Positions 32,648 to 54,108 of a stretch of DNA of 64,000 nucleotides are shown in pieces. The notes beneath the pieces are model-generated. The model saw only the letters and a program-made list of their open reading frames with translations, was not told the DNA's origin and made no database searches. The stretch comes from Holophagales bacterium (GTDB lineage Bacteria > Acidobacteriota > Thermoanaerobaculia > Multivoradales > Multivoraceae), in assembly GCA_009845425.1 (NCBI GenBank), contig VXZQ01000012.1, forward strand, positions 124,001 through 188,000, given 5' to 3'. The position numbers were made by a program, and so were the translations under genes. Each line of letters starts with the position of its first letter. Within the stretch, counting starts at the first letter, position 1.

Positions 32648-32668
32648 CGGTAACTCCGGGTCGCGGGA

Positions 32669-33148
32669 TCAGGCGATGCCGAAGAACGAGCGGGCGCGTT
32701 CCAGGACGGCCGCGTCCACCTCTTCGTAGCCGTGGTCTTCGGCGAACTTCTCGATCCCCGCGACCGCCGAGGCGCGGACGATGTCCGGGATGTTGGCGAG
32801 CCGCTCGCGGGCCTCGGCGGTCCAGGGAATGCCCTCCGGGCCGCCGTTGCCGCCCTGGACCGGGTTGGCGTTCTCCCCGGCTTGCGTCCCGGTCACCGGA
32901 ACGCCCATGTCGGCGAGCATGCCGGTGAACGGGCACTTCGAGGCGGCGGCGGCTGTCTCGGGATCTTCGGAAGCGCCGATCTTCACCCCGAGCGACCCGA
33001 CGACCTGGGTCTCGTGCGGGTTCGTCATCATCGCCATCTCGGCCGAGCAGGCGGGACAGGCATAGACCAGGGCGACCGAACCGCCTTCGGGGCCGATCGC
33101 GTGCTTGAGCTTCATCTGCTCGTCGCAGGGTACGCAGAGGAACTTCAT
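32669..33148 (-). CDS. Small zinc-ribbon protein with a CPF motif and a PCP_red-like domain
   Basis: This 159-residue protein has C5xxC8 and C31xxC34 (CVPC...CPAC), a rubredoxin-like metal knuckle. KCPFTGML follows near residue 71, then a Gly-rich linker, then a PCP_red-like helix pair at about 106-157 (IPWTAEARERLANIPDIVR). The same CPF and PCP_red elements recur in the neighbouring radical SAM protein or the stress protein at 39062-41221. CP dipeptides can bind haem in other proteins. The gene is 12 bases from the Mrp-type ATPase and 21 from the radical SAM gene, all same strand. Function unknown; a metal or tetrapyrrole carrier is a guess. Confidence 0.8.
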   Translation of the reverse strand: MKFLCVPCDEQMKLKHAIGPEGGSVALVYACPACSAEMAMMTNPHETQVVGSLGVKIGASEDPETAAAASKCPFTGMLADMGVPVTGTQAGENANPVQGGNGGPEGIPWTAEARERLANIPDIVRASAVAGIEKFAEDHGYEEVDAAVLERARSFFGIA

Positions 33149-33160
33149 CAGGTCTCCGGA

Positions 33161-34039
33161 TCAGCCGGCCCGCCGCTCGGCGAGTCCGCTCAGGATGGAG
33201 TCGGCGGCGGCCTCGATCGCGGTGACGGCCGGCCCCCGCGGCAATTCCGGTTCGCCGGCATCGGAGGCCGCGGCCAGTCGCGGGTCGAACGGTATCGAAG
33301 CGAGCACGGGGAGTCCAAGCTCGGGCGCCGTGTCCACAGGCCCATCGAACAGGGTTCTGACCTCGTCGCAGCTTCCGCAGTAGTAGCCGCTCATGTTCTC
33401 GATCACGCCGAGAGTCACGTTCGGGGTTCGCCGCAGCGCGGCCGCCGACCGCGCCACGACGCCTCGCGCCAGTGCGGTCGGGATGGAGACGAGGACGAAA
33501 CGGGCCCCCGGTCCGAGGACCTCGGCGTACTGGAGCGTGCGCTCGGCGCCGGGGGGCAGGTCGACCAGGAGAACGTCGAGACGTCCCCAGTCGACCAGGC
33601 CGAGCAACTGCTGGAACAGGTTGAACTCTCGGGTGGCGCGCCAGACATGGGAGTCGCCGCGGGCAACGCTGGCGAAGTCCAGATCCTCCGATTCCGGCAC
33701 CGCCGAACCCATCGATACGACGCCGAGGCCCGTCGACGTGCGGGGCAGCGCCATGCCGCGGCCGCCTGGAAGGATGGCCGCGTTCTCGAGGCCGGCGAGG
33801 CGTGCCTGGCACGGGCCGTTCAGGTCGGCGTCGAGGACGGCGCAGCGGCGCCCGCGGCGCTCCATTGCCAGGGCCAGTTGCATCGTCAAGGTGCTCTTGC
33901 CGACGCCCCCCTTGCCCGAGCCGATGGCGAGGACGTGCTCGACGCCGGCCAGCGCCTCGGCGATGCGCTGCCGCTGCCGGCCGACCTGGCCGGCGATGTC
34001 GGAACCGCCGTCCTCGGTCAGGTCGAAGTAGCTCTTCAT
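33161..34039 (-). CDS. Mrp/NBP35-family (ParA-like) P-loop ATPase
   Basis: The true start is ATG at 34039 (MKSYFDLTEDGG). Upstream the frame is a shadow of the acetyltransferase gene. The 292-residue protein has the deviant Walker A GSGKGGVGKST near residue 40, a switch DADLNGPC, and CGSCDEVRTLF near 215, matching the C-terminal CxxC of Mrp/NBP35 iron-sulfur carriers. It lacks the N-terminal DUF59 of longer Mrp. Such proteins assemble or transfer Fe-S clusters. Adjacent to a radical SAM gene and a zinc-ribbon/PCP_red gene, it may supply clusters to that enzyme; this is inferred from proximity. Confidence 0.88.
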   Translation of the reverse strand: MKSYFDLTEDGGSDIAGQVGRQRQRIAEALAGVEHVLAIGSGKGGVGKSTLTMQLALAMERRGRRCAVLDADLNGPCQARLAGLENAAILPGGRGMALPRTSTGLGVVSMGSAVPESEDLDFASVARGDSHVWRATREFNLFQQLLGLVDWGRLDVLLVDLPPGAERTLQYAEVLGPGARFVLVSIPTALARGVVARSAAALRRTPNVTLGVIENMSGYYCGSCDEVRTLFDGPVDTAPELGLPVLASIPFDPRLAAASDAGEPELPRGPAVTAIEAAADSILSGLAERRAG

Positions 34040-39061: not shown

Positions 39062-41221
39062 TCAGGCTTCCGGTTCGCCGGCCTTGCGCTTCTCGTCAAG
39101 GGCCGACATCAGGCCGACCTCATTCAGGTAGGTGCCGGCCTTCGCGTCCCTGGCCGCCTCGACCTGCGCCTCACTCGCGCCGGCCTCGGCGAGCGCGGAG
39201 AAGGGGCATCTGCCGGCGCCCTGAGCGGCCTTTGCTTCGGCCTCGGCCACTTCGGTTGCCGGGGTGCCTTCATCCTTGCCGATCTCGTAGGCCGCGATCA
39301 TCTGCTCCATCAGCTTGCGGCCGAGTTCGATGCCCTCTTCGACCGTCTTGATGCCGATCCGGGAGACGTGCTTCTCGCGGGCCACGAGTTCGACACGCTC
39401 CTGGGTGCGGTCGCGCATGAAGCCGGCGGGAACCCGGAGGATGCGCTCGACGGCTTCGGCGGTCCACTCGAAGCTCGAGAGGAGCGGCACGCGGTCGTCG
39501 TCGCGGGCGATCAGCTTGCGCTCGTCCGCGGACGCTTCGGCGGCGCCGCTGCCGTTGGCCTCGGTCGCCTGCACGCGGGCCTCGATCGTCACCGGCTCGC
39601 CGGTCTCGTCCTCGATCATCACGCGGGCGAACTCGAAGGTGACGGTGGGCAGCTTGCTCATCCGCGCCTTCTTCTCGATCCGCGCCTTGGCGCGGCGGCG
39701 GCGGTAGGCGTCCTCGATCGTCTTGAGCGCCAGGCGCGCGTCGGCGGTCCACTTCAGCTTGCGGCCGTCGTAGGTGGTCTCGACCTCGAGGCCTCCCTCC
39801 ATCTCAGCGATCCGTTCCAGCATCTCCTCAGTGATCTGCTCGAAGGAGTCGCTGCCGCAGACGCCGCAGCGGACGGGGTCGGGCTCGGCCGAGGTGACGC
39901 CGCACTTGCGGCAGATGAAGGTGGGCCGGCTGCGTGCGAGCTGCAGAGCGACCTTCTCGGCCAGGGCTTCCGTCTCGCGGGCGGTGTACTTCGGCATGTA
40001 GCGGTCCATCGCCTCGTCGAGCACGTCGCTGGAGATCACGCTGTGACCCTGTTCGACCGCCAGGCGGTAGAGGGCGGTGCGGGCGATGCCGCGCACCTGC
40101 TCGGGCACCCGCTTGAAGCGCTCCTCGGCTTCGGGGGTCCAGCGGATGCTCTCCTCGGCCTTGACGTCGAGTTCCGGGTACTCCAGGCGGGTGGTCAGGA
40201 GCAGGTCGCAGGGGCAGGCGCGGAGCAGGTTCTCGGCGTTGCTGCCGAGTCCGGACTCGCTGTCGTCGCTGTGGACGCCGACGCGGCCGATGACGAGCAT
40301 CCAGGGATCGATCTTGCGGGCGTGGTCGAGGACCTTCTGGAACGCCTTGCCGTCGAGCAGCGTCTTCGTCAACTCGACGCCGACCTCGGTCGCCATCGTC
40401 TCGGCGACGTCCAGGTGGGACTGGTAAATCTGCGCCAGACCGGTGTCGATGATCTCCTCGTGGAGCTGGTTCTGCTCCTCGAAGCGGAAGATCTTGGCCG
40501 CGCGCTCGGTCAGCACGTTGACGACGCCCTTGAACACCGAGTAGTGGAGGTAGGGGTCGTAGACCGAGATCGCCTCGACCTTCTTGCCGAAGGTCTTCGC
40601 CAGGTCGATCGCGGTCATCAAGGCGCCGAAGGACTGGGGCGAGCCGTCGACGCCGACCAGGATCGTGTCGCGGCCGTCGGCTTCAGCCTGATGCCCGTTG
40701 CCGTTGCCGTTCGCCGCCCCGGCCTTCGCCGGCAGCCGCTTGATGACCAGCACGTCCCGGTCGGCGGTGCGGGCGACCCGCTCGCAGACCGAGCCGATCT
40801 GGGTGTCGCGGACGCGGCCGATGCCCATCACGCCGAGCACCGTCAGGTCGTAGCCCGACTCACGGATGTCGCGCACGATCTCGACGTGGTGCTTGCCGTC
40901 CATCATCTTCGGCTCGAAGTCGAGGCCGGCGTCGTCGCAGACCGCCTTCATCGGCTCGAGGTAGCTCTCGGAGATGAGCTCCAGGCCCATCGTGATCAGC
41001 GAGTCGTGGATCTTCCGCTGGCGGTCGAGTTCCGTCTCCTCCAGGTACTCGTCCGGCAGGGTGTACTCCATCTGCTTGAACCGGTAGTCGTGCATGCTGG
41101 CCGCGTAGACGTGGCAGCCGACCATCGTGGAGTCGAACTTGCGGCCCAGCTCGACCGCCGAAGCGATCGCCTGGTTCGAGTAGTCCGAGTTGTCGACGGG
41201 GACGTAGATCGTCTTGTACAT
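39062..41221 (-). CDS. Tandem universal-stress protein fused to three PCP_red-like domains and a zinc ribbon
   Basis: This 719-residue protein has two UspA domains. The first (residues 1-160) contains GVMGIGRVRDTQIGS, matching the ATP-binding G-x2-G-x9-G(S/T) motif, and the second (about 186-345) contains a related GRVGVHSD...GS. PCP_red-like modules follow at about 359-409 (RWTPEAEERFKRVPEQVR), 489-540 and 584-640. Between the first two is a zinc knuckle C437xxC440...C452xxC455 (CRKC...CGVC). The tail carries GRCPFSAL near 671, echoing KCPFTGML in the small protein at 32669. No enzyme activity is obvious. It is just downstream of the respiratory operon and separated from it by a pair of direct repeats. 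Confidence 0.85.
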   Translation of the reverse strand: MYKTIYVPVDNSDYSNQAIASAVELGRKFDSTMVGCHVYAASMHDYRFKQMEYTLPDEYLEETELDRQRKIHDSLITMGLELISESYLEPMKAVCDDAGLDFEPKMMDGKHHVEIVRDIRESGYDLTVLGVMGIGRVRDTQIGSVCERVARTADRDVLVIKRLPAKAGAANGNGNGHQAEADGRDTILVGVDGSPQSFGALMTAIDLAKTFGKKVEAISVYDPYLHYSVFKGVVNVLTERAAKIFRFEEQNQLHEEIIDTGLAQIYQSHLDVAETMATEVGVELTKTLLDGKAFQKVLDHARKIDPWMLVIGRVGVHSDDSESGLGSNAENLLRACPCDLLLTTRLEYPELDVKAEESIRWTPEAEERFKRVPEQVRGIARTALYRLAVEQGHSVISSDVLDEAMDRYMPKYTARETEALAEKVALQLARSRPTFICRKCGVTSAEPDPVRCGVCGSDSFEQITEEMLERIAEMEGGLEVETTYDGRKLKWTADARLALKTIEDAYRRRRAKARIEKKARMSKLPTVTFEFARVMIEDETGEPVTIEARVQATEANGSGAAEASADERKLIARDDDRVPLLSSFEWTAEAVERILRVPAGFMRDRTQERVELVAREKHVSRIGIKTVEEGIELGRKLMEQMIAAYEIGKDEGTPATEVAEAEAKAAQGAGRCPFSALAEAGASEAQVEAARDAKAGTYLNEVGLMSALDEKRKAGEPEA

Positions 41222-41241: not shown

Positions 41242-41290
41242 CGGAGTGTCGGGTCAGAGAGATTCGGTTTCTGCCGGAGAGTCGGGTCAG
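41242..41290. repeat. Pair of 16-bp direct repeats upstream of the stress-protein gene
   Basis: CGGAGTGTCGGGTCAG (41242-41257) and CGGAGAGTCGGGTCAG (41275-41290) match in 15 of 16 bases. Their 33-base spacing is about three helical turns, so they could be tandem sites for a regulator of the USP/PCP_red gene (start at 41221). The right copy overlaps the stop codon of the cytochrome gene. Confidence 0.55.
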
Positions 41291-43065
41291 ACGGCGGGGG
41301 CCTCGGTTGCGGTGAGGCTGGCCGCCGCGGTTTCTTCGTCGGCGGCCTGCTGGCGGGCCCGCCGGCGGACCAGGAAGACGACCAGCAGCTCGACGACGAG
41401 CACGATCAGGGCGGCACGGAGCACGGGACCCGCTACGGCCTGCTCGACGCTCGGTTCAGTGTAGACGTAGAACCAGGAGGACAGGGCCCGCTTGTTGCCG
41501 CGTTCGCGGTTGAAGCCGTCCCAGACGCTGAAGGCGACCGGCGTGTACTGCTCCTCGGCGAAGCTGACGCCGGCTCGCGACGAGCGCCGCCGCTTGTAGG
41601 TCACGGTCCACGCGCCCTGGTCGTAGGAGGTCACCGCCTCGACGATGTCCGCCTCGGTCGCTTCGATCGAGTCGCTGCCGCGGCTCCGGAAGGTGTCCGC
41701 GACGCCGTAGGTCAGGTTGACGAACCAGAGATCGACCGGGTTCTGGGCGTCGCCGTACAGGAAGTACGGTTTGAGTTCGGGAGTCTCTTCGGGCGCCAGC
41801 GAGGCCGGGAACTGCAGCGCCACGGCGTCCGAGAACTCGGCGCCGCCGGCGCCCGCGTCGGCGGTTCCGAAGAAGTCGTCGCCGCCGTCGCCGAAGAAGT
41901 CGTCGCCGCTGTCGCCGAAGAAGTCGTCTTCCGGCGGCGCTTCCTCGCCGCCGAAGTCACCGAAGAAGTCGTCGGAGTCGCCACTATCGTCGGCCGCGTC
42001 GCCGCCAATGCCGTTGTCCTCGTCCCACATCGGCACTTCCAGGCTCGGGTTGTTGCGGCCCGAGGTGTCGGCGCGCAGATCGTGCCAGCGGACCCGGAAC
42101 GCGATCTCGTCGCGGTTGTAGATCGCCTGGGCCTCGATCGAGGTGACGGAGGGGAAGAAGTTGCGCCCCGGTTCGGTGATCTGGCCGACAAGGGGGAACC
42201 GCGTCATCGGCGCGGATTCGAAGAGGGCGTCGAGTGTTTCCCCATCCTGCAGGTCGATCGGCTCCTCCGAGTAGACGGCCGTGATCAGGGTGCCGTAGTT
42301 GGGATCGTCCGCGTCGCCCAGGGAATGGACGTAGTTCACCAGGTGCTGGCGGTCCTCGACTTCAAGCGAGTCGGCGTAGGACGGCATCGGCGTGCCGTTC
42401 AGCCCGGTGGAGAACGTGCGGTAGATGTCCTCCTTGGTCGGGCCGCCGCGGTAGGTCCAGCGCTGGGTCAGGTCGGCGACCTTGATCGGGTCGCCCTTGT
42501 CGTTGACGAGGGTCGGCGCCGAGGGGCCGTCGCCGCGTCCGACCTCGCCGTGGCAGGCCGCGCAACCCTGCTCCTCGTAGACCACGCGGCCCCGGGCGAT
42601 CGATTCCTCGGTCGACTCGAGCGGTCGCGGAATGTCGATCGGCTCGGCGTAGCGGTCGGGGTTCTCGAAGGCGGACGAGAAGGACTTGATGTAGTAGATG
42701 ACGTTCTGGACCTCGGCGCTGGTCAGGTTCGGCCAGCCCGGCATCGAGGTGTAGGGGGCTCCGATCTCGATGATCCGGCGCAGGTCGTCGTCCGTCGGCA
42801 GCGTGCCGTTCGGTGTGGTCCGGAACTTGTACGTGCCGGTCGTGAAGTCGCGCGGCTTCGGCTGGACGCGCGGCGTGGCGTAGCCGTTGCCGTCGCCGGT
42901 GTCGCCGTGGCACTGGCCGCAGTACTTGTCATAGACGATCTTGCCGCCCGCCCGCTGCTCTTCCGTGCCGAGGTCGACCTGGCCGCTGGTGGGCAGCGCC
43001 ACGAGCAGAGCGGCGGCGGCGAGCGTCGCCGCAGCCTGTGTGCGTCGCCTGGCGTGTGCGGTCAT
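41287..43065 (-). CDS. Membrane-anchored dihaem cytochrome c with ethylbenzene-dehydrogenase-like haem domain
   Basis: This 592-residue protein starts at ATG 43065 (MTAHARRRTQ, signal peptide to about residue 28). It has two c-type haem motifs, CGQCH at 49-53 and CAACH near 160. A domain like the haem-binding subunit of ethylbenzene dehydrogenase/NxrC follows (AIYNRDEIAFRVRWHDLRAD, then YTPVAFSVWDGFNRERGNK). A C-terminal membrane anchor (VLRAALIVLVVELLVVFLV) ends it. An acidic insertion made of DDFFGD repeats (about 385-435) interrupts the haem domain. It overlaps the next cytochrome gene (TGATG). It is probably a periplasmic electron carrier of the respiratory cluster. An additional b haem in the dehydrogenase-like domain is inferred from the family. 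Confidence 0.85.
   Translation of the reverse strand: MTAHARRRTQAAATLAAAALLVALPTSGQVDLGTEEQRAGGKIVYDKYCGQCHGDTGDGNGYATPRVQPKPRDFTTGTYKFRTTPNGTLPTDDDLRRIIEIGAPYTSMPGWPNLTSAEVQNVIYYIKSFSSAFENPDRYAEPIDIPRPLESTEESIARGRVVYEEQGCAACHGEVGRGDGPSAPTLVNDKGDPIKVADLTQRWTYRGGPTKEDIYRTFSTGLNGTPMPSYADSLEVEDRQHLVNYVHSLGDADDPNYGTLITAVYSEEPIDLQDGETLDALFESAPMTRFPLVGQITEPGRNFFPSVTSIEAQAIYNRDEIAFRVRWHDLRADTSGRNNPSLEVPMWDEDNGIGGDAADDSGDSDDFFGDFGGEEAPPEDDFFGDSGDDFFGDGGDDFFGTADAGAGGAEFSDAVALQFPASLAPEETPELKPYFLYGDAQNPVDLWFVNLTYGVADTFRSRGSDSIEATEADIVEAVTSYDQGAWTVTYKRRRSSRAGVSFAEEQYTPVAFSVWDGFNRERGNKRALSSWFYVYTEPSVEQAVAGPVLRAALIVLVVELLVVFLVRRRARQQAADEETAAASLTATEAPAV
41869..41973. repeat. 24-bp minisatellite encoding DDFFGD repeats
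   Basis: The 12-mer GAAGAAGTCGTC recurs at 41869, 41893, 41917 and 41962; the first three are exactly 24 bases apart. On the coding strand this gives repeated DDFFGD units inside the haem-domain cytochrome. It looks like in-frame expansion of a short repeat. Confidence 0.75.
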
Positions 43066-43883
43066 CAGTGCTGCCCCAGGGCACGCGGCTCGTAGCCGTT
43101 GAAGTCGTAGATGAACAGGTTGACGTCCCACATCTCCTCGGTGGTCAGGAACTTCTCCCAGGCGGGCATGGCGCTGTCCCAGGGCGTGCCGCCGGCTGGC
43201 ATGCCGGGACCGCCCTTGGCGATCCGCCAGTGAACGAACGAGGATTGCAGGGCCGGCAGCGTGCCGACGTCGTTGAAGTTGCTGGGCACCGGGTTCAGGC
43301 CGTGGGCGAACATGCCGTCGCCTCCCATGCCGTCGCCGTGGCACCAGAAGCAGTTCTCGTAGTAGACCCGGCGGCCGTTCTCCACATGCTTCCCGTACAG
43401 CTCCGGGTCGTCGTGCTTGTAGTGGAGGTACGGATTCTCGGCCGTCGCCATGTCGATCGTCTCGTCGTGAACGGTGAGTTCATTGGGCGGCGGCGGATGG
43501 ATCTCGCGGCCGAATCCGGGCGCCTCGAGCGGCATGGTCAGGTCGGCGTAGGCGTTGTAGGCCGCCAGCCCGGGAAGGGCGACGAGGAGTCCCGCGAGGG
43601 CGAGGCGATGGCGTGGTTCGAGGATCAGCCGCTTGATCGGCTGAACGGTCTCCGCCAGCCGCTCGCGGCCCGAAGACGCGTAGGCGACGAGCGCCAGCAC
43701 GGTGATTGCCAGGTAGATCGTTGCGACGGACTGCGGGATCGGAACCACGAAGCCGAACTTGAAGAAGGCCCACAGGCCGACCAGACTGTAAAGGAGCCAG
43801 GCGAGGGTGTGGGCCCGCCGCCAGACGAGTAGTCCGCCGATCGCGGCCAGGACGAGAACAACAGGAAGGTTGAGTCCCCACAT
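43065..43883 (-). CDS. Membrane-bound monohaem cytochrome c
   Basis: This 272-residue protein has three or four hydrophobic helices in its N-terminal half (about 5-22, 28-46, 55-70, 92-110), then a periplasmic cytochrome c domain. The single haem motif CFWCH is near residue 175, with HGDGMGGDGMFAHGL after it. Possible distal methionines lie in GGPGMPAG or DSAMPAWE. It probably passes electrons within the respiratory cluster. Start ATG 43883; the stop overlaps the following cytochrome start. A 120-base gap containing a small hairpin separates it from the upstream cytochrome gene. Confidence 0.85.
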   Translation of the reverse strand: MWGLNLPVVLVLAAIGGLLVWRRAHTLAWLLYSLVGLWAFFKFGFVVPIPQSVATIYLAITVLALVAYASSGRERLAETVQPIKRLILEPRHRLALAGLLVALPGLAAYNAYADLTMPLEAPGFGREIHPPPPNELTVHDETIDMATAENPYLHYKHDDPELYGKHVENGRRVYYENCFWCHGDGMGGDGMFAHGLNPVPSNFNDVGTLPALQSSFVHWRIAKGGPGMPAGGTPWDSAMPAWEKFLTTEEMWDVNLFIYDFNGYEPRALGQH

Positions 43884-44003: not shown

Positions 44004-44489
44004 TCAATAGCCGAGATCGGTGGCCAGGGTCACCGTCGGCGTTCCACCCAGGCTCTGCAGCCAGGCGATCACTGCTTTCATTTCGTCTTCCGAGAGGCTG
44101 ATGGGCGGCTGGTCTATCGGCTGCATTCCATCCGCGAAGCCGGGAACGATGAAGGCCGCCGGTTCGTAGAGGGACTGGGCCAGGTACTCGAGGCCGGAGA
44201 GCCCTTCGATCTGGGTCGCGGCGCGGGCGCCGATTCCGTCCAGGTCCGGGTAGCGGAGCGGACCGCTCTGTCCGACCGTATGGCAGCCGACCAGGCACTG
44301 CCCCTTTCCGCTGGCGAGTTCCGCGCCGACCGCGACCAGATCCTCCGTCGTCATCTCGGCGCTGATCAGCACGGGCGGCGGCGGGTGGGCCTCCTTCTGC
44401 GGCACGATCTGGCCCAGGTACATGTAGAAGGCCGTCGTGCCAACCACCAGCAGCACCAGCCGCAGCGGCATGGGGATGCTCAGCTTCAT
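44004..44489 (-). CDS. Membrane-anchored cytochrome c with an unusual CX3CH haem motif
   Basis: This 161-residue protein has an N-terminal membrane anchor (residues about 8-27). A short linker rich in Pro follows, then a cytochrome c-like domain. Its only haem-attachment candidate is CLVGCH at 65-70, with three rather than two residues between the cysteines. A methionine in GFADGMQPIDQPP near 120 is a plausible sixth ligand. The rest (AVIAWLQSLGG at the C terminus) is typical of mono-haem cytochrome c. The start overlaps the upstream CydA-like gene stop (ATGA), so it is probably translated with it. Confidence 0.85.
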   Translation of the reverse strand: MKLSIPMPLRLVLLVVGTTAFYMYLGQIVPQKEAHPPPPVLISAEMTTEDLVAVGAELASGKGQCLVGCHTVGQSGPLRYPDLDGIGARAATQIEGLSGLEYLAQSLYEPAAFIVPGFADGMQPIDQPPISLSEDEMKAVIAWLQSLGGTPTVTLATDLGY

Positions 44490-46420
44490 GCCGCCTGCCC
44501 CCCTTCGAGCCGGCCGCCGCCGTCAGCGACCGGCTTCGGTTCCCAGTCCTTCTTCCCGCCGAGGCTGCTGAGCCAGAAGACGACGCCGAGCAGGCCGAAG
44601 AAGATGAGAACGGTGACGGACACGACTTGCGTTGCGAAGCCGAGGGTCGGCGTGTAGGCGTCCGGCGAGGTGTCCAGGATCACGCCATACACGTGCCATT
44701 CCTGGCGTAGCCCGGAACGGACGTACCCCATCAATCCCATCAGCCAGGTGAAGCTGAGCGCGATGAAGATGAGGGCGTACTGGGAAACCGCCGGCATCTT
44801 GCCCCATTTGGTCTCGCCCGACTGGGCGGCGTTGCGGTACAGGGGCAGGTCGATCACGGTGATCACCACCAGCGCGGCGAGCACCGAGTAGACCTGCGGA
44901 ATCGCGAAGCGGATGCGCGTGGCCGCGTCGACGTAGTAGCCGTAGACGCCATAGAAGATGACCAGGGCTGCCGCCGAGGAGAACACGATCGCCTGGGCGC
45001 GGGTGAGGAGATCCCTGTGCGGATGGATCGACTGCCTGCCGGTCCGGCGGTAGAGCAGGAAGCTCATGTAGGTCGAGAGGATCAGGATGTTGACCGCCGT
45101 GTTCTTGGCCGACATCTGTCCCAGGTAGGAGAGCTGCGGGTGGCTGCTGCCGCCCATCGCGGCGATCTCGGATACCGATGAGATGGCGTAGCGCGGCGTC
45201 GCCCAGACCGCGAAGCAGAGGGCGATCGCGATCAGCAACCACTTGATGAACTTCTGGAAGTGGACTCCGCCCTCCATGCGGCCCATCCCCAGCCAGAGGT
45301 AGTAGTTCGCGCCCAGGAACAGGTTGCCGATGAGAGCCGCCTGGATGACGAAGAGCCAGGAGAACGTGCCACCCATCATCTGGATGCCCAGGGTCTGGCT
45401 GAAGGCGTAGATCTCGGCCGCCAGGTAGTAGCCCGCGAACGGCAGAGGCAGGAAGGCGATGATGGCGACGAAGTTGCCGACGTAGCCCATCCAGTCGAAG
45501 TGGGCCTTCTCCTCGTCGGTCTTCGCTTGCAGGTAGCGGAAGGCCGCGTAGGCGGCGGCGATCGAGCCGCCGAAGGCGACGTTGGCGATGATCCGGTGGA
45601 TGTTGATCGGCATCCAGGTGTAGTTGAAGAAGGCGTCCCGGAGGCTCAGGAGAGCGCCGCTCTCCGAGACGGCGGAGACGAAGTCCGGGACGCCGTCGCC
45701 ATTCTCGTCCGCTCCCCGCGTTCCCGGCGACATCATGAAAGTGAGCCAGGCGTTGGCGATGAACATGATCGCGGTGCCCACGATGTTCAGCATGAAGCCC
45801 AGGAACAGGTGCATCTTCGGCCCGAACTTGCCCCAGCCGTAGTAGTAGCTGTAGAGGAACAGCGCCTCCAGGAAGAACAGCAGGACGTAGGGCAGGAACG
45901 TCGGCGAGAAAATGTGCATCAGGTAGTTCGTGAACTTCGGGTAGAGGATGATCAGCCCGAAGGTCAGGAAGGCCCCGAAGGTGGCGGTCATCGAGAACGA
46001 GACGGAGAGCAGCTTCGTGAACTCGTAAGCGAGCTTGTTGTAGCGCTCCTCCTTCTTCACGTAGCCGACGAACTCGATGATGAAGGCGAACAGCGGCACC
46101 GCGAGGACGAACGCCGCGAACAGCAGATGTAGCTGGGCCAGCACCCAGACGGTGACCCGGCTGCCGACGAACGGCACGGCGCGGTACTCGGCCTCCTCGT
46201 AGGGTCTGGCCCGCGCTTCGGCCTCATCCGCGGCCTGCTCGTCGGCGATGCCCTGCTGGCGTGGCGTGAGCTCGGCCTCGCCCTGCTCTTCCTGGGCGGC
46301 GACCTGCCGGTCCGGCTGGCGGTACTCGTTGTCCACGAGGAAACCGCCCAGACGCACCGTGACGATCACGGACACGAAGGCGAGAACGCCGATGCCGAAG
46401 AGGATCCTGTTTCTGTTCAT
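44486..46420 (-). CDS. Divergent cytochrome bd oxidase subunit I (CydA)-like protein
   Basis: This 644-residue protein has an N-terminal transmembrane helix (7-24), a charged linker of about 60 residues, then nine or more helices of the CydA fold. It conserves a histidine in AQLHLLFAAF (H98, aligned with CydA H19) and one in INIHRIIANVAFGG (H275, aligned with H186). A glutamate is conserved in FFLEALFLYS (E185, aligned with E107). The E99-equivalent is proline (P177) and the GRQPW motif has become GLRQEW near 585, so canonical haem-d oxidase chemistry is doubtful. No CydB gene follows. The gene lies in an alternative-complex-III-like operon where NrfD-like subunits are expected. A ribosome site GGGGAA precedes the ATG. 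Confidence 0.8.
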   Translation of the reverse strand: MNRNRILFGIGVLAFVSVIVTVRLGGFLVDNEYRQPDRQVAAQEEQGEAELTPRQQGIADEQAADEAEARARPYEEAEYRAVPFVGSRVTVWVLAQLHLLFAAFVLAVPLFAFIIEFVGYVKKEERYNKLAYEFTKLLSVSFSMTATFGAFLTFGLIILYPKFTNYLMHIFSPTFLPYVLLFFLEALFLYSYYYGWGKFGPKMHLFLGFMLNIVGTAIMFIANAWLTFMMSPGTRGADENGDGVPDFVSAVSESGALLSLRDAFFNYTWMPINIHRIIANVAFGGSIAAAYAAFRYLQAKTDEEKAHFDWMGYVGNFVAIIAFLPLPFAGYYLAAEIYAFSQTLGIQMMGGTFSWLFVIQAALIGNLFLGANYYLWLGMGRMEGGVHFQKFIKWLLIAIALCFAVWATPRYAISSVSEIAAMGGSSHPQLSYLGQMSAKNTAVNILILSTYMSFLLYRRTGRQSIHPHRDLLTRAQAIVFSSAAALVIFYGVYGYYVDAATRIRFAIPQVYSVLAALVVITVIDLPLYRNAAQSGETKWGKMPAVSQYALIFIALSFTWLMGLMGYVRSGLRQEWHVYGVILDTSPDAYTPTLGFATQVVSVTVLIFFGLLGVVFWLSSLGGKKDWEPKPVADGGGRLEGGQAA

Positions 46421-46434
46421 CTGTTCCCCGGGCG

Positions 46435-47022
46435 CTACTGGCGCGCCGCCCGCTCCGCCTGCATCGTTCGGCGTTCCTGCTGCAGCTCACGGACGTAGGC
46501 GACGACCGCCCAGCGGTCCTCGACCGTGAGCGGATAGCGGTACCCCGCCATCAGGCCGACGCCGTTCGTGATCACGTCGTACATCCGGCCGTCGTTGTAG
46601 GCGGCGATCCGCTCGTCGTGGAGCGAGGCCGTGGGCGTGCTCGCCCGCTCGAACAGGATGCCCTGGCCCGTGCCGCGCTCGTCGTGGCAAGGCTGGCAGT
46701 AGATCGCGTAGCGGTTCTCGCCGCGGGCGAGGACGTCGCCGGTAACCGCGATGGGAGAAGTCTCCAGGAAGTAGCCCGCGTCGTCGCGGCCGAACAGCAG
46801 GCGGTGGTCGACGTCGAGCTGCCCGCGGGCCACGGTGCCCACGACGGGCTGGCGCATCGCCATGCCGTCGTAGAAGAAGGCGCTCGCCTCCTGCGGGTCG
46901 TAGCGCTCCTGGTAGTCCATGTTCGGGTTGGGGTGGATCGGCGGGAAGGGCGACGGCATACCCCGGCAGCCGAGCAGGAGCAGGACGGTGGCCAGGGCCG
47001 CGGCTTCGGGCAGCCGGCGCAT
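46435..47022 (-). CDS. actE: Alternative complex III monohaem cytochrome c lipoprotein (ActE-like)
   Basis: This 195-residue lipoprotein (MRRLPEAAALATVLLLLGC) has a single CQPCH motif near residue 112. The family's pattern is FFYDGMAMRQPV, then GTVARGQL and ENRYAIYCQPCHDE, with a methionine in NGVGLMAGYRYPLT near 160. It matches ActE of alternative complex III, the quinol-to-cytochrome c oxidoreductase. Start ATG 47022 overlaps the ActB stop (TGATG), and the CydA-like gene follows after 14 bases. In a standard operon ActC and ActD come between ActB and ActE; here they do not. Confidence 0.9.
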   Translation of the reverse strand: MRRLPEAAALATVLLLLGCRGMPSPFPPIHPNPNMDYQERYDPQEASAFFYDGMAMRQPVVGTVARGQLDVDHRLLFGRDDAGYFLETSPIAVTGDVLARGENRYAIYCQPCHDERGTGQGILFERASTPTASLHDERIAAYNDGRMYDVITNGVGLMAGYRYPLTVEDRWAVVAYVRELQQERRTMQAERAARQ

Positions 47023-50000
47023 CAGTGCGCGTCCTCGCCGCCGCCGTGGTCTTCGGCGGGTGGCGGCGCCGGCGTGATCTCGCGGTTCGGGTGGCGGATC
47101 TTCGCGAGGTAGGTCGTCCGGGGCTTCGTGTGCAGGTCGTCGAGCAGGTTGTAGTTGCGGGGGCTCGCCTTCGCCTGGGAAACGCCGCTCGCCGCGTCCG
47201 TGATGTCGCCAAAGCGGATCGCCTCGGCCGGGCAGGCCTGCTGGCACGCAGTGACGACGTCGCCGTCGGCCAGGCCCCGCCCGTCCTGCTTGGCGTCGAC
47301 CTTGGCGCGGCTGATGCGCTGGACGCAGTACGTGCACTTCTCCATGACGCCCCGGGAACGGATCGTGACGTCCGGGTTCTTGCCCAGCTTCATCACCTCG
47401 GGAGTGTCCTTGGTGAAGTTGAAGTAGTTGAAGCGCCGCACCTTGTAGGGACAGTTGTTCGAGCAGTAGCGGGTGCCGATGCAACGGTTGTAGACCATCG
47501 CATTCAGCCCTTCGCTGTCGTGCACGGTGGCCGCGACCGGGCAGACCTGCTCGCAGGGCGCGTTCTCGCACTGCATGCAGGGCACCGGCTGGAAACTCGT
47601 CTGAGGCTCGGAAGGGAGGTCGTGGACGAGGTCCCGGAGCATGCCGCGTGATTCTCCCTCGTCGGAGAAGTAGCGGTCGATGCGGAGCCAGTGCATCTCC
47701 CGGCCCTCCATCACCTGCTCCTTGCCGACGATCGGCACGTTGTTCTCGCTCTGGCATGCGATCATGCAGGCGTTGCAGCCGACGCAGGCGTTCAGGTCGA
47801 TCGTCATGCCCCACTGCGGCGAGTCCTTGTAGGTCCACTCGTCCCACATCGAGTTCTCGTGCGGCTTCTCGCTGTGGGCGGTCGCGAAGTCGGGATGCGC
47901 CTCGAAGTAGTCGAGGTCGGCCTCGCGGACGATCGGGCGCCCCTCCATCGAGTGGTGGTCCTGGGTCTGCGCCAGCGGGTACGTGCCGCCGGTCGGGCTG
48001 AGCGTGCCGCGGGCGAGATCGGGCGCTTCCGAGCTGCGCAGCAGGTAGACGTTGCGGCCGGGAGCGCGGCCCTTCGTGTTGGCGGCGCTCGCGATCCGGC
48101 CCGGAAAGTCGCGGCCGTAGCCGAGGTCGAGCGTCACCGTGTTGTCGGCCTGTCCCGGCACCTGCCAGACGGGCAGCTCGAGCTCGCGCCCGCCGGAGGC
48201 CACCGTGACGAGGTCCTCGTTCTCGAGGCCCAGCGCTCCGGCGGTGGTGGGGCTGATCAGGGCGGCGTTGTCCCAGGTCAGCTTGGTCATCGCGTCCGGC
48301 AGCTCCTGCAGCCAGCCATTGTTGGCGAAGCGACCGTCGTGGACCGCCGGGGAACACCGGAAGACGATCTCCAGGTCGTCGCTCGCGGCGATCGCCTGGG
48401 CGGCCTCGCCCGCGGCTCGCACCGCGGCCGCGCCATCATCAGGGGCGATGGCGGGGAGATCGGCCGCCGGCGCGGCGCTGCCGTCCAGCAGGCCGTCGTG
48501 CAGGACCTTGCGCCAGGCCTTTTCGAACTCGGAGAGCGCGACGGGAAACGGCAGCGACATCGGGTCGACCGGGACGGCCTCCTCCGCTTCGGCCTCTTCG
48601 CCGGAGGCGTCGTCGTCCGCGGCCGCGTCGGCTTCCGCCCCGGGTTCTGGCGAGGCCCCGGCGACGGGCGCCTCGTCGGCGTCCTCCTCGAGCGGCAGAC
48701 CGAGGATCCCGGACCAGGTCTCACGAACCAGGTCGCGGCCATCGCGGGATTCGCCCAGAGCGGCCAGCGCCAGCACTTCGACCAGGCTCTTTGCGCCGTA
48801 GAGCGGCTCGATCAGAGGCTGGACGACGCTGGCCGTGCCATCGGTGGCGCGGGCGTCGCCCCAGCTCTCGAGATAGTGGGCGAGCGGCACGTGCCAGCGG
48901 GCGAAACGGCTCGTTTCGTCCCGGTAGGCGCCGACGTGGATGACCGCGCCAGTGCTGCCCAGGCTCTCCAGGGCGGCGGAGAAGTCGAGGTCGGTGGGAG
49001 CGTTGTAGGCGGGGTTGGCGCCCAGGACCAGCAGACGGTCGACCGCGCCTTCGTGGATCGCCGCCGCCAGGGCGGCAAGATCCGCGTCGCTCGAGCTACC
49101 GCTGTCGGACGTCCGGTGGTACGTCACCGTCGAGCCTGCATTGCCGAGCGCCGAGTTCAGGGCGTAGACGGCGGCGTGGACGGCCGCGGGCTGGCGGTTG
49201 CCGGCGACGATCAGGCCGGCGCCGCGGTGGGCGATCAGGTCCTGCGCCAGCGCGTCGACCCAGGCGTCGTCGATGTCCGCGGCCGGCGCCCCGCCGTCAA
49301 GCGGCAGTTCCAGGCCGTGTCCCGCGAGTGCGCTGCCGAGCCGGGCGACGAAGGCCGCGACCCGGCCGCTCTGCACTCGCAGGCGGTGGTCCGCGTTCGC
49401 CGCCGTGACCGAGTGGACGCCGTCGACGGCGTAGTGGCGCAGCGGGCTGCCGCCGCCTTCCTCGTTCACGCGTCGGCCACGGGAGTACCCGCGCAGGTTG
49501 CGGACGCCGTCCCCCTCGGTGCTGAGAAAGTCGGAATCCAGAGTCAGCAGGACTTGCGCGCGGTCGACGTGGTACAGCGCGTGGAAGTGCTCACCGGCGG
49601 CGAGCGTCGTTCCCCGGTCGGCGTTCTCCTCGCTCACCGGTTCCCAGGTGACCCAGCGCGCCTGTGGATAGCGGTCGAGCAACGCTTCCTTGAGCCGGAC
49701 CAGGGTCGGCGACGAGGACGGCTCGGCGAGGATGGCGAAGCCGGTGCCGTCGGCCGCGGGGCCGAGGTTGCCTTCGGTCCAGGCGGCCACGAAGTCGTCC
49801 CAGGAAGACGCCTCGTTGGCGAAGCGCACGGACTTCGACCGGTCCGGGTCGTACAGGTCGAGCATCGAGGACTGAGCCCACACGCTCGACGCGCCTTCCG
49901 AGAACGGATGGAGCTCGTTGCCTTCGACCTTGGTCGGCCGGCCCTCGTGGCTCTCCACCAGCAGACCGAGCGCGCGGCCGCCGAATGGCATCGTGGTGGC

Positions 50001-50297
50001 GTAGGCCAGCGGAACGCCGGGGACCATGCCCTCCGGAGCGTCGACGTAGGGGACGATGTGCTCGACCGGGCGCCGGATGATGTCGCAGCCGGTCAGGCCG
50101 GCGAGCGACGCGGTCCCACCCAGCATGGCGAGCACGCTGCGCCGGCTGACGCCGTCCCGCAGCAACTCGGGCGGCGCTTCGGACGCACGCTCCGGGAACT
50201 CACGGTGCAGGAAGTCGGCCGACCGGGAGTCTCCCTGGAGCTGCTCCAGGCTGCGCCAGTAGGTCTTGTCCGGTCGCTTGCCGTTGCCCGCGCTCAT
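47022..50297 (-). CDS. actB: Alternative complex III ActB: molybdopterin-oxidoreductase-like and 4Fe-4S ferredoxin fusion
   Basis: This 1091-residue protein starts at ATG 50297 (MSAGNGKRPD) with a twin-arginine signal (DGVSRRSVLAML, R52-R53) and, as in ActB, a following Cys that suggests a lipoprotein or membrane link. The large N-terminal part is molybdopterin-oxidoreductase-like (an Asp/Glu-rich insertion near 590). The C-terminal third carries four 4Fe-4S motifs: NACVGCNACMIAC near 830, CMQCENAPCEQVCP near 890, GTRYCSNNCPYK near 930 and CTYCVQRIS with CQQACP near 955-995. In the family the molybdenum site is lost. It overlaps ActA by four bases and ActE by one. Confidence 0.92.
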   Translation of the reverse strand: MSAGNGKRPDKTYWRSLEQLQGDSRSADFLHREFPERASEAPPELLRDGVSRRSVLAMLGGTASLAGLTGCDIIRRPVEHIVPYVDAPEGMVPGVPLAYATTMPFGGRALGLLVESHEGRPTKVEGNELHPFSEGASSVWAQSSMLDLYDPDRSKSVRFANEASSWDDFVAAWTEGNLGPAADGTGFAILAEPSSSPTLVRLKEALLDRYPQARWVTWEPVSEENADRGTTLAAGEHFHALYHVDRAQVLLTLDSDFLSTEGDGVRNLRGYSRGRRVNEEGGGSPLRHYAVDGVHSVTAANADHRLRVQSGRVAAFVARLGSALAGHGLELPLDGGAPAADIDDAWVDALAQDLIAHRGAGLIVAGNRQPAAVHAAVYALNSALGNAGSTVTYHRTSDSGSSSDADLAALAAAIHEGAVDRLLVLGANPAYNAPTDLDFSAALESLGSTGAVIHVGAYRDETSRFARWHVPLAHYLESWGDARATDGTASVVQPLIEPLYGAKSLVEVLALAALGESRDGRDLVRETWSGILGLPLEEDADEAPVAGASPEPGAEADAAADDDASGEEAEAEEAVPVDPMSLPFPVALSEFEKAWRKVLHDGLLDGSAAPAADLPAIAPDDGAAAVRAAGEAAQAIAASDDLEIVFRCSPAVHDGRFANNGWLQELPDAMTKLTWDNAALISPTTAGALGLENEDLVTVASGGRELELPVWQVPGQADNTVTLDLGYGRDFPGRIASAANTKGRAPGRNVYLLRSSEAPDLARGTLSPTGGTYPLAQTQDHHSMEGRPIVREADLDYFEAHPDFATAHSEKPHENSMWDEWTYKDSPQWGMTIDLNACVGCNACMIACQSENNVPIVGKEQVMEGREMHWLRIDRYFSDEGESRGMLRDLVHDLPSEPQTSFQPVPCMQCENAPCEQVCPVAATVHDSEGLNAMVYNRCIGTRYCSNNCPYKVRRFNYFNFTKDTPEVMKLGKNPDVTIRSRGVMEKCTYCVQRISRAKVDAKQDGRGLADGDVVTACQQACPAEAIRFGDITDAASGVSQAKASPRNYNLLDDLHTKPRTTYLAKIRHPNREITPAPPPAEDHGGGEDAH

Positions 50298-50941
50298 CGG
50301 TGGCACCCCGTGCAGTCCTCGGGCGGCGCGAGCGACCGTTCCGTGATCGCCAGTGCGGCGAAGGCCGCGTGGTCGCCGGTCGGTATCCACTCCATGTCGG
50401 TCACCGCCTCGAGCGGCCGCAGATGCGGACCCGGGTCGCGGTGACAGTCGAGGCACCAGCTCATGCTCAGGGACTCCGCCTGGTAAACGACTTCCATCTC
50501 ATGGACGGGGCCGTGACAGCTCCGGCAGCCGACGCCGGCTCCGACATGAACGCTGTGGTCGAAAAAGGCGTAGTCGGGCAGGTTGTGAATCCGTACCCAG
50601 CGCATCGGACGATCCTGCTCGATGCTCCTGCGAATCGGCTCCAGCAACTCGCTGTCGCGGACAGCGACGTGGTGGCAGTTCATGCAGACCTGGGTCGGGG
50701 GCACGTTGGAGACCGCCGACTCCTCGACCGAGGCGTGGCAGTAGCGGCAGTCGAGGCCGAGTTCGCCCACGTGGAGGGCGTGGCTGTATGGCACCGGCTG
50801 CGCCGGGCGGTAGCCGACGTCCGTGTACTCGGGCGAGAAAAACCACCAGATGCCCCCCACGACGACGGCGCCGACGATCGGCAGGGCGACCGCCGCGTAC
50901 AGCGGTAGCCTGAGGGTCCACTTGGGGAAGATCTGCGGCAA
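50294..50941 (-). CDS. actA: Alternative complex III pentahaem cytochrome c (ActA-like)
   Basis: I place the start at TTG 50941, giving a 215-residue protein with MPQIFPKWTLRLPLYAAVAL and a single membrane anchor. ActA usually begins with a similar short basic stretch and an anchor. Five CxxCH motifs follow: CRYCH near 79, CMNCH near 97, CRSCH, CLDCH near 175 and CTGCH near the C terminus. The frame is open to 51133, but that would overlap the divergent SCO gene. AAGG lies 9-12 bases before the TTG, within a possible hairpin stem. It opens the respiratory operon: ActA, ActB, ActE, CydA-like, and three further cytochromes. Confidence 0.9.
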   Translation of the reverse strand: MPQIFPKWTLRLPLYAAVALPIVGAVVVGGIWWFFSPEYTDVGYRPAQPVPYSHALHVGELGLDCRYCHASVEESAVSNVPPTQVCMNCHHVAVRDSELLEPIRRSIEQDRPMRWVRIHNLPDYAFFDHSVHVGAGVGCRSCHGPVHEMEVVYQAESLSMSWCLDCHRDPGPHLRPLEAVTDMEWIPTGDHAAFAALAITERSLAPPEDCTGCHR

Positions 50942-50946
50942 GTTTC

Positions 50947-50976
50947 CGTACCTTGAAGCAGGGTACGAAGCCCTGC
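50947..50976. promoter_or_regulatory. Overlapping inverted repeats in the actA leader
   Basis: CGTACC (50947-50952) with GGTACG (50962-50967), and GCAGGG (50958-50963) with CCCTGC (50971-50976), are two 6-bp inverted repeats. They share bases 50962-50963 and their arms interleave, so the two hairpins exclude each other. On the minus strand the first covers the AAGG before the actA TTG, so translation could be controlled. Confidence 0.35.
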
Positions 50977-51051
50977 CTGTCCTGCGGTCGCGCGGAGTGT
51001 ACAGCGTGGGTTCGAGGCGGTCAAAGCCCGGCCTCCGGATAGGCTCGAGCC

Positions 51052-51720
51052 ATGTCCGAGGAGCGGCTTTCCGGTCCTGATGAGGGAGTGCAGAAGCCCC
51101 GCCGACACCCCCTGAAGCCCAGCCTGAACCCATGGGTTCTCGCGGCGCTGGCAGGTCTCGTCCTGATCCCGGCGATCAGGCCGTTGCTCCGGTTCGAGCC
51201 CGACCCGCCGCCGGTGCTGCGGCAGTTGCCCGACTGGCGACTGGTCGACCAGAACGGTGAGTCGTTCGGTAGCGGCGATCTGGCGGGCGAGGTCTACGTG
51301 GCCTCCTTCCTGTTCACACGCTGCGCCACGGTCTGTCCGCGCCTCACGGCCTCGCTGCGCCAGCTGGACCGGCGCTACCGCGAGGAGGGGGTCGAGGGCG
51401 TGAGACTGGTCAGCTTTTCAGTCGATCCGGAGCACGACACGCCGGAGCGGTTACGCGACTATGCCGGGAGCCGGAGCCTGGACCTGGAGCGGTGGAGCCT
51501 CCTCACCGGCGCCGAGCGGGAGGTGCGCTCGATAGTCGTCGACGGTTTCGCCCTGCCCATGGGAGAACGGCTGGACCTGGCCGGCGGTCTGGTCGACGTC
51601 GCGCACGCGGCGCGGCTGGCCCTCGTGGACCGCGACGGCGGCGTCCGTGGCTACTATGGCTCGGACGCCGTCGGCGTGGACGAGGTCTTCCACCGCACCC
51701 GGCAGATCCTCGCGGAGTAG
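51052..51720 (+). CDS. SCO1/SenC-family copper chaperone
   Basis: This 222-residue protein has a membrane anchor (about 28-45) and a thioredoxin-like domain. The copper-binding CxxxC motif is in TRCATVCPRL (C91, C95), and a partner histidine candidate lies in VDVAHAARLALVD near 190. The VSFSVDPEHDTPERL stretch near 122 is a family hallmark. SCO proteins deliver copper to the CuA site of haem-copper oxidases. No such oxidase is in the window, but the gene is divergent from ActA, and alternative complex III often precedes a caa3 oxidase in other genomes. Confidence 0.92.
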   Translation: MSEERLSGPDEGVQKPRRHPLKPSLNPWVLAALAGLVLIPAIRPLLRFEPDPPPVLRQLPDWRLVDQNGESFGSGDLAGEVYVASFLFTRCATVCPRLTASLRQLDRRYREEGVEGVRLVSFSVDPEHDTPERLRDYAGSRSLDLERWSLLTGAEREVRSIVVDGFALPMGERLDLAGGLVDVAHAARLALVDRDGGVRGYYGSDAVGVDEVFHRTRQILAE

Positions 51721-51725
51721 CGCTG

Positions 51726-52853
51726 TCAGGCCTCGGCCCGCTCCCGCTGTTCCGGCGGTTCCATCTCCAGGATCCACTGGCGGATCAGTTCCACCGCCTC
51801 GACATCGACGAGACCGCGGCCCAGTTCGGGCATCATGATGCCCGGGTGCGTCGACTCGATCCGGTAGACGAGGATCGATTCGTCGGGTTCGCCGGGGACG
51901 ACTCCGTACAGGCGGTCGCCGGTGCCCTGGCCGGCGGCGACGGGGTGCTTGTAGATGCCCAGCCGGGTCCGGTCCCGGTGCCCCTTGCGGAGATCGAGGC
52001 CCGAGGTGCGGCCGCTGCCCGTGAGGTTGTGACAATGGGCGCAGTTGATGTCGAGCCAGGTGCGCGCGCGCTTATCGACACTGCCGGAGGGGGCGACGTT
52101 CCAGACCGGCGCCCGCGGCGCTTCCGCGGCCGGCGGCGCGCCCTCGAGAAAGCCGATGCGCCGCCATCGTTCGAGCTGGTTCTCCCGAAGGGTCGTTCCG
52201 TCCTGGTCGGGGTAGGTGTACTCGCGGTTCAGTAGCGCCGCCTGAGGCCCGATCGGCAGTACGCGCTCGCCGTCCGTCCGGTGGCAGGTCTTGCACTGGT
52301 TCGCGTTCGGCACCCGGTACGTGTGCTCGATCCTCGCGCCCCCGGCGTCGATCCATGACACCTCGAGCGGCCCGCCCACGATCGCGAGTTCAGCGTCGGT
52401 CAGATCAGCGTTCCAGATGTACGGCAGGCCCACCCAGCCGCCCGCCTCGTGGACCAGCAGCCTGGTTTCGAGCGGCCGCAGGCCTTCTTCGGGAACCCTG
52501 AAATCCCTCGGGTAGGCGAAGGTCTTCGAGATGACCGTGCCGACAGGGAACTCGAACGGGCCTTCCTCGCGGTACAGGGCGGGTTCGACGTCGCCGCCGG
52601 GCTTCTCCGCCAGGCGCACGAATCGGAACTTCAGCGCGTAGTCCGAGAACAGGGCCGTGTTCAGGTCGTAGGGTTCGACGCCGGCGGCCGGGACGTGGCT
52701 CGCCAGCTCCCCGGCGAACAGTCCCCAGGCGGAGAGCTTCGCCGGGTATCGGGCGAACGGCCCCTGCCCGGAACCGCTCTCCCCGGCGGCGCAACCCGCC
52801 AGCGTGAGTGCGGCGATCGCCAGTGCCGCGTGTTGTGCGCTACGGGGCGCCAC
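51726..52853 (-). CDS. SO2930-family dihaem cytochrome c lipoprotein
   Basis: The start GTG 52853 gives a 375-residue lipoprotein (VAPRSAQHAALAIAALTLAGC). It matches the SO2930-type dihaem cytochrome family (TIGR03806-like): DLNTALFSDYALKFRFVRL near 58, GTVISKTFAYPRDF near 98, the first haem motif CKTCH near 186 and the second CAHCH near 270, and HPGIMMPELGR near 335. This family is usually paired with a parallel beta-helix lipoprotein, here directly upstream with a 14-base overlap. Electron partner and physiological role are unknown. The frame is open to 52901, but that part overlaps the neighbour further and has no signal-like features. Confidence 0.9.
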   Translation of the reverse strand: MAPRSAQHAALAIAALTLAGCAAGESGSGQGPFARYPAKLSAWGLFAGELASHVPAAGVEPYDLNTALFSDYALKFRFVRLAEKPGGDVEPALYREEGPFEFPVGTVISKTFAYPRDFRVPEEGLRPLETRLLVHEAGGWVGLPYIWNADLTDAELAIVGGPLEVSWIDAGGARIEHTYRVPNANQCKTCHRTDGERVLPIGPQAALLNREYTYPDQDGTTLRENQLERWRRIGFLEGAPPAAEAPRAPVWNVAPSGSVDKRARTWLDINCAHCHNLTGSGRTSGLDLRKGHRDRTRLGIYKHPVAAGQGTGDRLYGVVPGEPDESILVYRIESTHPGIMMPELGRGLVDVEAVELIRQWILEMEPPEQRERAEA

Positions 52854-54108
52854 CGGTCGCCGCGCCGAGATCGACCGGCTGGGGCACTGCCGGCAACGCA
52901 CCCTGATGCGCCGCCAGATCCGTGCTCACGTTCGGCTCGCCGCCCGCGAAGATGGAACCGAGATCGAGGTTCACGAAGTCCGCGTCACCGTTGTTCTCGA
53001 TGTACAGCCGCAGGTCCGCGGGTACCTCGCCTTCGACCAGCTTGTCCGGGTTCGAAACGCCGTCCCAGACGATGTCCGGGAAGGCGCCGCCCGCGAGGGC
53101 GACGAAGGCGTCCGCGAAGTCGCCGTTCGGGCCCTCGCCGCCGCCGACGAACTCGTTGTCGTGGATATAGACGCCCTCGGTGTAGGGGTCGTAGCCCGGG
53201 TCGTTGTACGCGCGGCCGGTCGAGAGGTAGGAGATGACCGCCAGGTTCGAGTTCTGGTTGTTGTGGATTCGGTTCCCGAACAGCTCGACGTTGTCGCTCG
53301 CCATCACGATGATCCCCGAGCCGGCCGGGATCGTCGACACGATCGCGCCTTCCTTGCCGAAGTTCGGCAGGTTGTTCTCAACGATGTCGTTGTCGTAGAC
53401 GCGGGCGTCGCGGCCGTCCTTGACGGGCAGTTCCGGCAGCGAGAAGACGAGCAGGCCGCCGGTGTTGCCGTGGGCCCGGTTGCCGTAGACGTCGGCGCCG
53501 GTCGTGTTCTCGATCTCGATGCCGGCCACGTTCTCCCAGACCTCGTTGCGCCGGACGACGACGTTGGCGGACTGGCCCACGTAGATGCCGGCGTCCGAGG
53601 CGCCGCGCACCTGGCTGTTCTCGATCAGAACGTTCGTGACCTGGACCGGATAGAGCCCGTAGGCGCCGTTGTTCGTGTCGGGTCCGTTCGTCCATTCGAC
53701 CCGGACACTCCGGAAGGCGGCACCGGTGGTGCCCTCCACCTTGATGCCGTCGCCCCTCGTGTTCTCGACCGCGAGGTTCTCGACCGTGAAGTCGTCGGCG
53801 GTGGCGAGGATCCCTTCGCCGCCTGTCCCCGGGGCCTGCGACGAGAAGTCGAGAATCGTGTCGTCCATCCCCTGGCCGCGCAGGGTAACGCCCTCGACGT
53901 CCAGGGAGAGGGTGGCGTCGAGTTCGAAGCGTCCGGCCGCGAGTTCGATGACCGCTCCGGGCTCGGCCGTCAGCAACGCCTCCTGGAGCGTCCGGTGGTC
54001 ATTGTCTCCGGGACGCAGCGTGGCGTCCTCCTGCGCGCAGGCTGCAAGCGTGAGCAGGCAGACCGAGGTGCAGAGGCAGTGTGTCCAAATGGCAGAGGGG
54101 TGCTTCAT
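52840..54108 (-). CDS. Parallel beta-helix repeat lipoprotein (partner of the dihaem cytochrome)
   Basis: This 422-residue protein starts with a lipoprotein signal (HCLCTSVCLLTLAAC, Cys near 24). Residues about 45-330 form a right-handed beta-helix of repeated short turns rich in Asn/Gly (NLAVENTRGDGIKVEGTTG-type, NEVWENVAGIEIENTTG). It resembles the TIGR03805-like family that sits beside SO2930-type cytochromes. Polysaccharide-binding or lyase-like proteins share this fold, but no catalytic residue is obvious. It reads toward the cytochrome, with a 14-base overlap. Confidence 0.88.
   Translation of the reverse strand: MKHPSAIWTHCLCTSVCLLTLAACAQEDATLRPGDNDHRTLQEALLTAEPGAVIELAAGRFELDATLSLDVEGVTLRGQGMDDTILDFSSQAPGTGGEGILATADDFTVENLAVENTRGDGIKVEGTTGAAFRSVRVEWTNGPDTNNGAYGLYPVQVTNVLIENSQVRGASDAGIYVGQSANVVVRRNEVWENVAGIEIENTTGADVYGNRAHGNTGGLLVFSLPELPVKDGRDARVYDNDIVENNLPNFGKEGAIVSTIPAGSGIIVMASDNVELFGNRIHNNQNSNLAVISYLSTGRAYNDPGYDPYTEGVYIHDNEFVGGGEGPNGDFADAFVALAGGAFPDIVWDGVSNPDKLVEGEVPADLRLYIENNGDADFVNLDLGSIFAGGEPNVSTDLAAHQGALPAVPQPVDLGAATGGAP

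Follow-up and report, generated by a model that had tools for sequence, protein, structure and literature searches.

The OR-N family of the cytochrome bd superfamily, reportedly delineated by Murali et al. in 2021, is said to comprise the bd-like oxidases of Nitrospira and Nitrospina. The bd-like proteins of Nitrospina possess 14 transmembrane (TM) helices, three of which replace the Q-loop, and a role like that of alternative complex III (ACIII) has been suggested for them (PMC3578206). The placement of bd-like (OR-N) proteins beside ACIII has already been reported for Nitrospirales, in which a CydA of the OR-N5 type, called an oxygen reductase, is encoded directly downstream of ACIII (PMC12342949); most of these genomes are devoid of haem-copper oxidases, and the role of terminal oxidase is provisionally ascribed to their bd-like proteins (PMC10579370, PMC12342949). 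Judged by their description, the TO_3/TO_4 terminal oxidase clusters of 'Candidatus Manganitrophus' (PMC9040806) likewise combine a bd-like protein with complex III- or ACIII-like components. In the canonical enzyme of E. coli, H186 and M393 are the ligands of haem b558, E445 is a ligand of haem b595, and E99 is oriented toward haem d (PMC6853902). The locus described here displays a double loss of ligands, a split ACIII and a fixed gene order.

The window analysed here is a stretch of 64,000 nucleotides from contig VXZQ01000012.1 of a Holophagales bacterium. An ORF on its minus strand (44486-46420, ATG start) encodes a membrane protein of 644 aa, hereafter CydL, with a CydA fold consisting of an N-terminal TM anchor and ~14 core TM helices. 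Residues 87-336 match Pfam family PF01654 (90 bits). The AlphaFold2 model (built from 40 sequences; mean pLDDT 71.9, pTM 0.74), which contains no haem, comprises an N-terminal helix, a weak linker and ~14 TM helices, as counted from the helix list. The initial annotation had described an extra helix and a linker in front of the CydA core, and the model displays them as helix 3-32 and a polar linker extending to residue ~80, albeit with low confidence in this region. A Foldseek search with the model yielded ten significant PDB matches, all of them to CydA, and VIA-align superimposed CydA chains on residues ~80-627 with Z-scores of 21-24.6 over 343-359 residues. Only CydA chains exceeded Z 20; the next match was ActC of ACIII (Z 16), a similarity that may reflect only a common duplicated four-helix-bundle plan (PMC6303296). 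CydL is thus a member of the cytochrome bd superfamily by both sequence and fold similarity to CydA. Its relatives (51-98% identity) were found in 77 public loci that keep the gene order, and therefore the ORF is not a chance occurrence. A search of plasmid records gave one weak match only, covering 17%.

The conservation of haem-ligand residues was assessed in an alignment of 74 CydL sequences, including that of the window, and in a joint alignment of three groups (canonical CydA, 23 proteins; OR-C-like, 16; CydL, 16). As initially proposed, H98, E185 and H275 align with H19, E107 and H186 of E. coli CydA, and all three are invariant or nearly so in the family (H98 in 73/73 sequences with data, H275 in 74/74). 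In the joint alignment H19 and E107 are common to all three groups, as is R448, while H186 has been lost from the OR-C-like proteins only. The absence of E99 was likewise borne out: its position corresponds to P177 or Y178, according to which alignment is used, and none of the 74 family members has Glu there. A second loss had gone unremarked in the initial annotation, namely that of E445, which is replaced by Ser569 in the window and by Ser or Ala in all 72 family sequences with data. This site lies directly before the motif GLRQEW, the counterpart of GRQPW in CydA, as the annotation had indicated, which reads GLRQHW in most relatives. Both positions are Glu in 23/23 canonical CydA and 16/16 OR-C-like proteins of the joint alignment, in which CydL never has Glu at the E99 position and has S or A at that of E445. 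M393, the second b558 ligand, was not recovered in CydL, where the alignment is weak because of the extra helices. A check for the quinol loop revealed no Q-loop in CydL; additional TM helices fill the region. From the ligand roles established in E. coli it follows that CydL retains the b558 histidine and is without both glutamates of the canonical oxygen-site haems. Further residues that are invariant or nearly so include H204, H307, E336, M349, H427, K439, R502, D524 and H576; altogether, more than 20 His, Glu, Met, Arg, Lys, Gln or Asp positions are conserved to this degree across the 74 proteins, which come from several phyla.

CydL is consequently not a canonical quinol-oxidizing (qOR) bd oxidase: it shares with canonical CydA the fold, H19, E107, H186 and R448, but it lacks E99, E445, the Q-loop and CydB, contains extra helices, and its M393 equivalent was not recovered. 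No cydB gene is adjacent, in agreement with the initial annotation, and CydB (PF02322) was found nowhere in the genome (98% complete), which was searched for a partner in trans as well. A CydA' partner in the same genome was rejected, as the search for PF01654 gave a single match, and cytochrome b of the bc1 type was not found in this genome either; the same searches identified one COX1 (contig C8), two NrfD genes (contigs C6 and C8) and one full ActB (in the window). Nor is CydL a member of the OR-C family, since its residue pattern is the opposite. The proteins that we take to be OR-C (L130-L147), on the basis of their fused c haems and family knowledge rather than a tree, resemble CydL in the CydA fold, in the lack of the canonical b558 histidine/quinol-oxidase layout and in electron supply by c haems; however, they keep E99 and E445 and have lost H186, the reverse of CydL, and they carry a C-terminal c-haem domain, whereas CydL is without any CXXCH.

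The genes on the minus strand are arranged in the order ActA-ActB-ActE-CydL-c1-c2-cEB-Usp. ActA (50294-51133; QrcA, 72.5 bits) is a QrcA-like penta-haem cytochrome c with five CXXCH motifs, ActB (47022-50297) unites a molybdopterin-enzyme-like domain and a 4Fe-4S domain in one fused chain, similar to QrcB/QrcC, and ActE (46435-47022) is an ActE-like mono-haem cytochrome c with a lipoprotein-type N-terminus. Downstream of CydL, c1 (44004-44489) is a membrane-anchored cytochrome c with one haem bound at an unusual CLVGCH motif, c2 (43065-43883) is a membrane cytochrome c with a hydrophobic N-terminal region and a single CXXCH, and cEB (41287-43065) is a di-haem cytochrome c fused to a haem-b domain of the ethylbenzene-dehydrogenase/DMSO-reductase type II kind; a Usp-PCP_red protein (39062-41221) is the conserved downstream companion. 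The start of ActE overlaps the stop of ActB, the start of c1 overlaps the stop of CydL, and c2 and cEB overlap in the same manner, because of which we regard the genes from ActA to Usp as an operon by layout. CydL of the window has no CXXCH, and its N-terminal extension is free of c-haem motifs; such a motif does occur within the N-terminal extension in three relatives (L055, L056 and L057), so that a c haem adjoins CydL in those lineages, which are represented by one Lentisphaeria and two Fibrobacteres-labelled MAGs. As for c1, its CX3CH motif is CLVGCH in the window and in 12 close relatives, CLAACH in one further locus (L020) and CXXCH in the other relatives checked. Divergent from ActA is a SCO1/SenC copper chaperone (51052-51720, plus strand), and two genes beyond it lies a NosD-like beta-helix protein (52840-54108, minus strand).

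In the survey of 77 CydL loci drawn from genome_contigs, which are not independent (17 are close to the window, at >=89% identity), c1 is the next gene after CydL in 72/73 testable loci, c2 follows in 71/71 and cEB in 61/61. The upstream neighbors vary: ActB and ActE in 39/58 loci, CoxA and CoxB in 5/58 and neither pair in 14/58; ActC was never found between ActB and CydL in the surveyed loci. The titles of the CydL records name Acidobacteria, Deltaproteobacteria, Bacteroidetes, Calditrichia, Verrucomicrobia, Fibrobacteres and others, with the caveat that the names of MAGs can be wrong. A second, more distant CydL-like paralogue exists in L148 (G116 contig 1), L055 (90-842) and L150; the copy in L148 (the same gene as in L135) is likewise without E99 and E445, those in L055 and L150 are followed by c2 and cEB genes of their own, and L055 has both types in tandem.

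The remaining ACIII genes are found elsewhere in the same genome. Contig C8 encodes ActC-ActD-ActF-CoxA-CoxC-CoxB, and the 18 kb examined there contain no ActABE; all six ACIII genes are hence encoded, ActABE in the window and ActCDF on C8. In relatives the halves often lie together: one locus (L046) reads ActC-D-F-A-B-E-CydL in a single row, and in L045, L117/L118, L119/L120, L121/L122, L123/L124 and L125/L126 both halves lie within a few tens of kb. ActC has therefore not been lost, and the complementary ActCDF-Cox half places CydL, with its c-type partners, in a respiratory gene set of ACIII and aa3 oxidase. Compared with the described ACIII (ActABCDEF) and ACIII-aa3 supercomplex, the set has ActA, ActB and ActE here and ActC, ActD, ActF and Cox on C8; the described ACIII is without CydL and the three further c-type cytochromes. 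The possibility that CydL replaces ActC (NrfD), prompted by the absence of an NrfD gene from the operon, was considered and rejected as a sign of loss, with NrfD present in 30/30 CydL genomes tested and ActC-D-F encoded with Cox on C8, though it is conceivable that CydL binds ActABE in place of ActC, because the ActB of its own operon is the only full copy.

The CoxA of this set is not degenerate: HPEVY, HH and the haem histidines are present, and by eye CoxA and CoxB retain the haem, CuB and CuA residues. A COX1 match was absent from 2/30 CydL genomes, which the incompleteness of these MAGs could account for. Among 149 Acidobacteriota genomes, which were assigned to the CydL type by the bit score and range of their PF01654 matches, the CoxA subtype is present at >=70% identity in 9/10 CydL-type genomes and at >=60% in 14 genomes without CydL, two counts that lack phylogenetic independence; the latter 14 indicate that the oxidase does not need CydL. 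A separate Qrc/Psr-like operon with a penta-haem cytochrome, a molybdopterin-type enzyme, an Fe-S protein and NrfD occurs in L113 (G000 contig 6, 131000-150000).

The suggestion that CydL is a bd-superfamily member with different electron partners agrees well with the lack of CydB and of the Q-loop, with c-type cytochromes that are nearly always co-encoded, and with the c-haem motif within three CydL proteins. In view of the lost residues, the co-encoded haem-c proteins and the shared respiratory gene set, CydL probably transfers electrons instead of reducing oxygen by the usual route, and a canonical bd mechanism is unlikely. Our preferred reading, to which we assign a probability of about 50%, is that CydL relays electrons in the membrane as a b-type cytochrome linked to c-type cytochromes, within a chain of ACIII and aa3 oxidase. 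It would use the CydA fold to hold b-type haem, most likely without the canonical oxygen-reducing haem pair, and would presumably not reduce O2; it may exchange electrons, in either direction, with the periplasmic c-type haems of c1, c2, cEB and ActE, possibly by direct contact, and would work inside the ACIII/aa3-oxidase respiratory chain. The relay would probably be coupled to movement of charge or protons via the extra polar helices. A broader proposal is tentative, and we hold it to be rather doubtful as a whole: in several phyla, a protein of the bd-oxidase fold would have lost the oxygen site and been recruited into a split ACIII/aa3 assembly, where it relays electrons and possibly moves charge. 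His307, His427 and His576, invariant or nearly so, and many Met residues speak against a relay, as they could form another site. The view of related Nitrospirales proteins as putative terminal oxidases and the two CydL genomes without a COX1 match weigh against it too.

Among the alternatives, the most probable is that CydL reduces oxygen with electrons from cytochrome c, as an OR-N-type enzyme whose haem site would have been rebuilt without E99 and E445. By architecture and by its place beside ACIII, CydL comes nearest to OR-N, above all OR-N5, among the described groups, as compared via published descriptions rather than a tree: common to both are a CydA-like protein with ~14 TM helices and without Q-loop or CydB, cytochrome c partners and a location beside ACIII. 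The CydL model has the architecture of the Nitrospina proteins, with 14 TM helices including three for the Q-loop (PMC3578206), the OR-N5 CydA of Nitrospirales lies directly downstream of ACIII (PMC12342949), and H19, E107 and R448 are kept. However, CydL differs from OR-N5 in that its ACIII is split (ActABE with CydL, ActCDF with CoxACB) and a competent-looking aa3 oxidase belongs to the same gene set; both active-site glutamates are missing from every relative, whereas the OR-C-like proteins, in which H186 is also lost, keep both; and searches of the genome yielded neither CydB nor another CydA-like subunit. On balance we consider an oxygen reductase of this kind possible, if somewhat unlikely. 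The earlier remark that CydL is perhaps not an oxygen reductase is thus plausible and gains weight from the absence of E445 in addition to E99, yet a rebuilt oxygen site is compatible with the sequence.

Less probable still is that CydL acts as a quinone-reactive subunit, forming a further complex III-like module between quinone and c haems. The extra region harbors invariant charged and polar residues that could suit such a role (E336, Q342, Q360, R381, E418, H427, K439, R502, Q509 and D524), and an ACIII-like role has been proposed for the Nitrospina bd-like proteins (PMC3578206); CydL has, however, no Q-loop or other known quinol site, M393 was not recovered, and ActC, the usual quinone subunit of ACIII, is encoded elsewhere in the genome. 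The Z 16 match to quinone-binding ActC, the next-best fold, also fits this proposal unless it stems from the four-helix-bundle plan alone. That CydL is a decayed bd oxidase without function, as one might conclude if only the missing E99 and E445 were considered, is extremely improbable, being already contradicted by the polar and Met positions conserved across several phyla and by the fixed gene order.

In genome surveys, a protein that contains a CydA domain is readily tallied as an oxygen reductase, and if the CydL lineage is without the oxygen site, such surveys overstate the capacity for microaerobic life in Acidobacteriota, Bacteroidota and other groups. If the relay reading is true, a membrane protein of the CydA fold can relay electrons in conjunction with c-type cytochromes next to ACIII, which bears on the role of bd-like proteins in nitrite and manganese oxidisers.

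Farther downstream on the minus strand the window encodes three probable accessory proteins (31277-34039): a Mrp/ApbC-type Fe-S carrier ATPase (33161-34039), linked to the cluster in relatives, a small Cys-rich protein assigned to PCP_red by its match range (32678-33151) and a radical SAM/SPASM protein with a PCP_red tail (31277-32644), all three being conserved. Radical SAM, Mrp-type ATPase and PCP_red proteins recur downstream of CydL across phyla, and they may have a role, possibly a dedicated one, in haem maturation. A relative of the radical SAM protein (in L054) obtained its best scores with the haem-modifying enzymes NirJ2 and AhbD, below the equivalog cut-offs.
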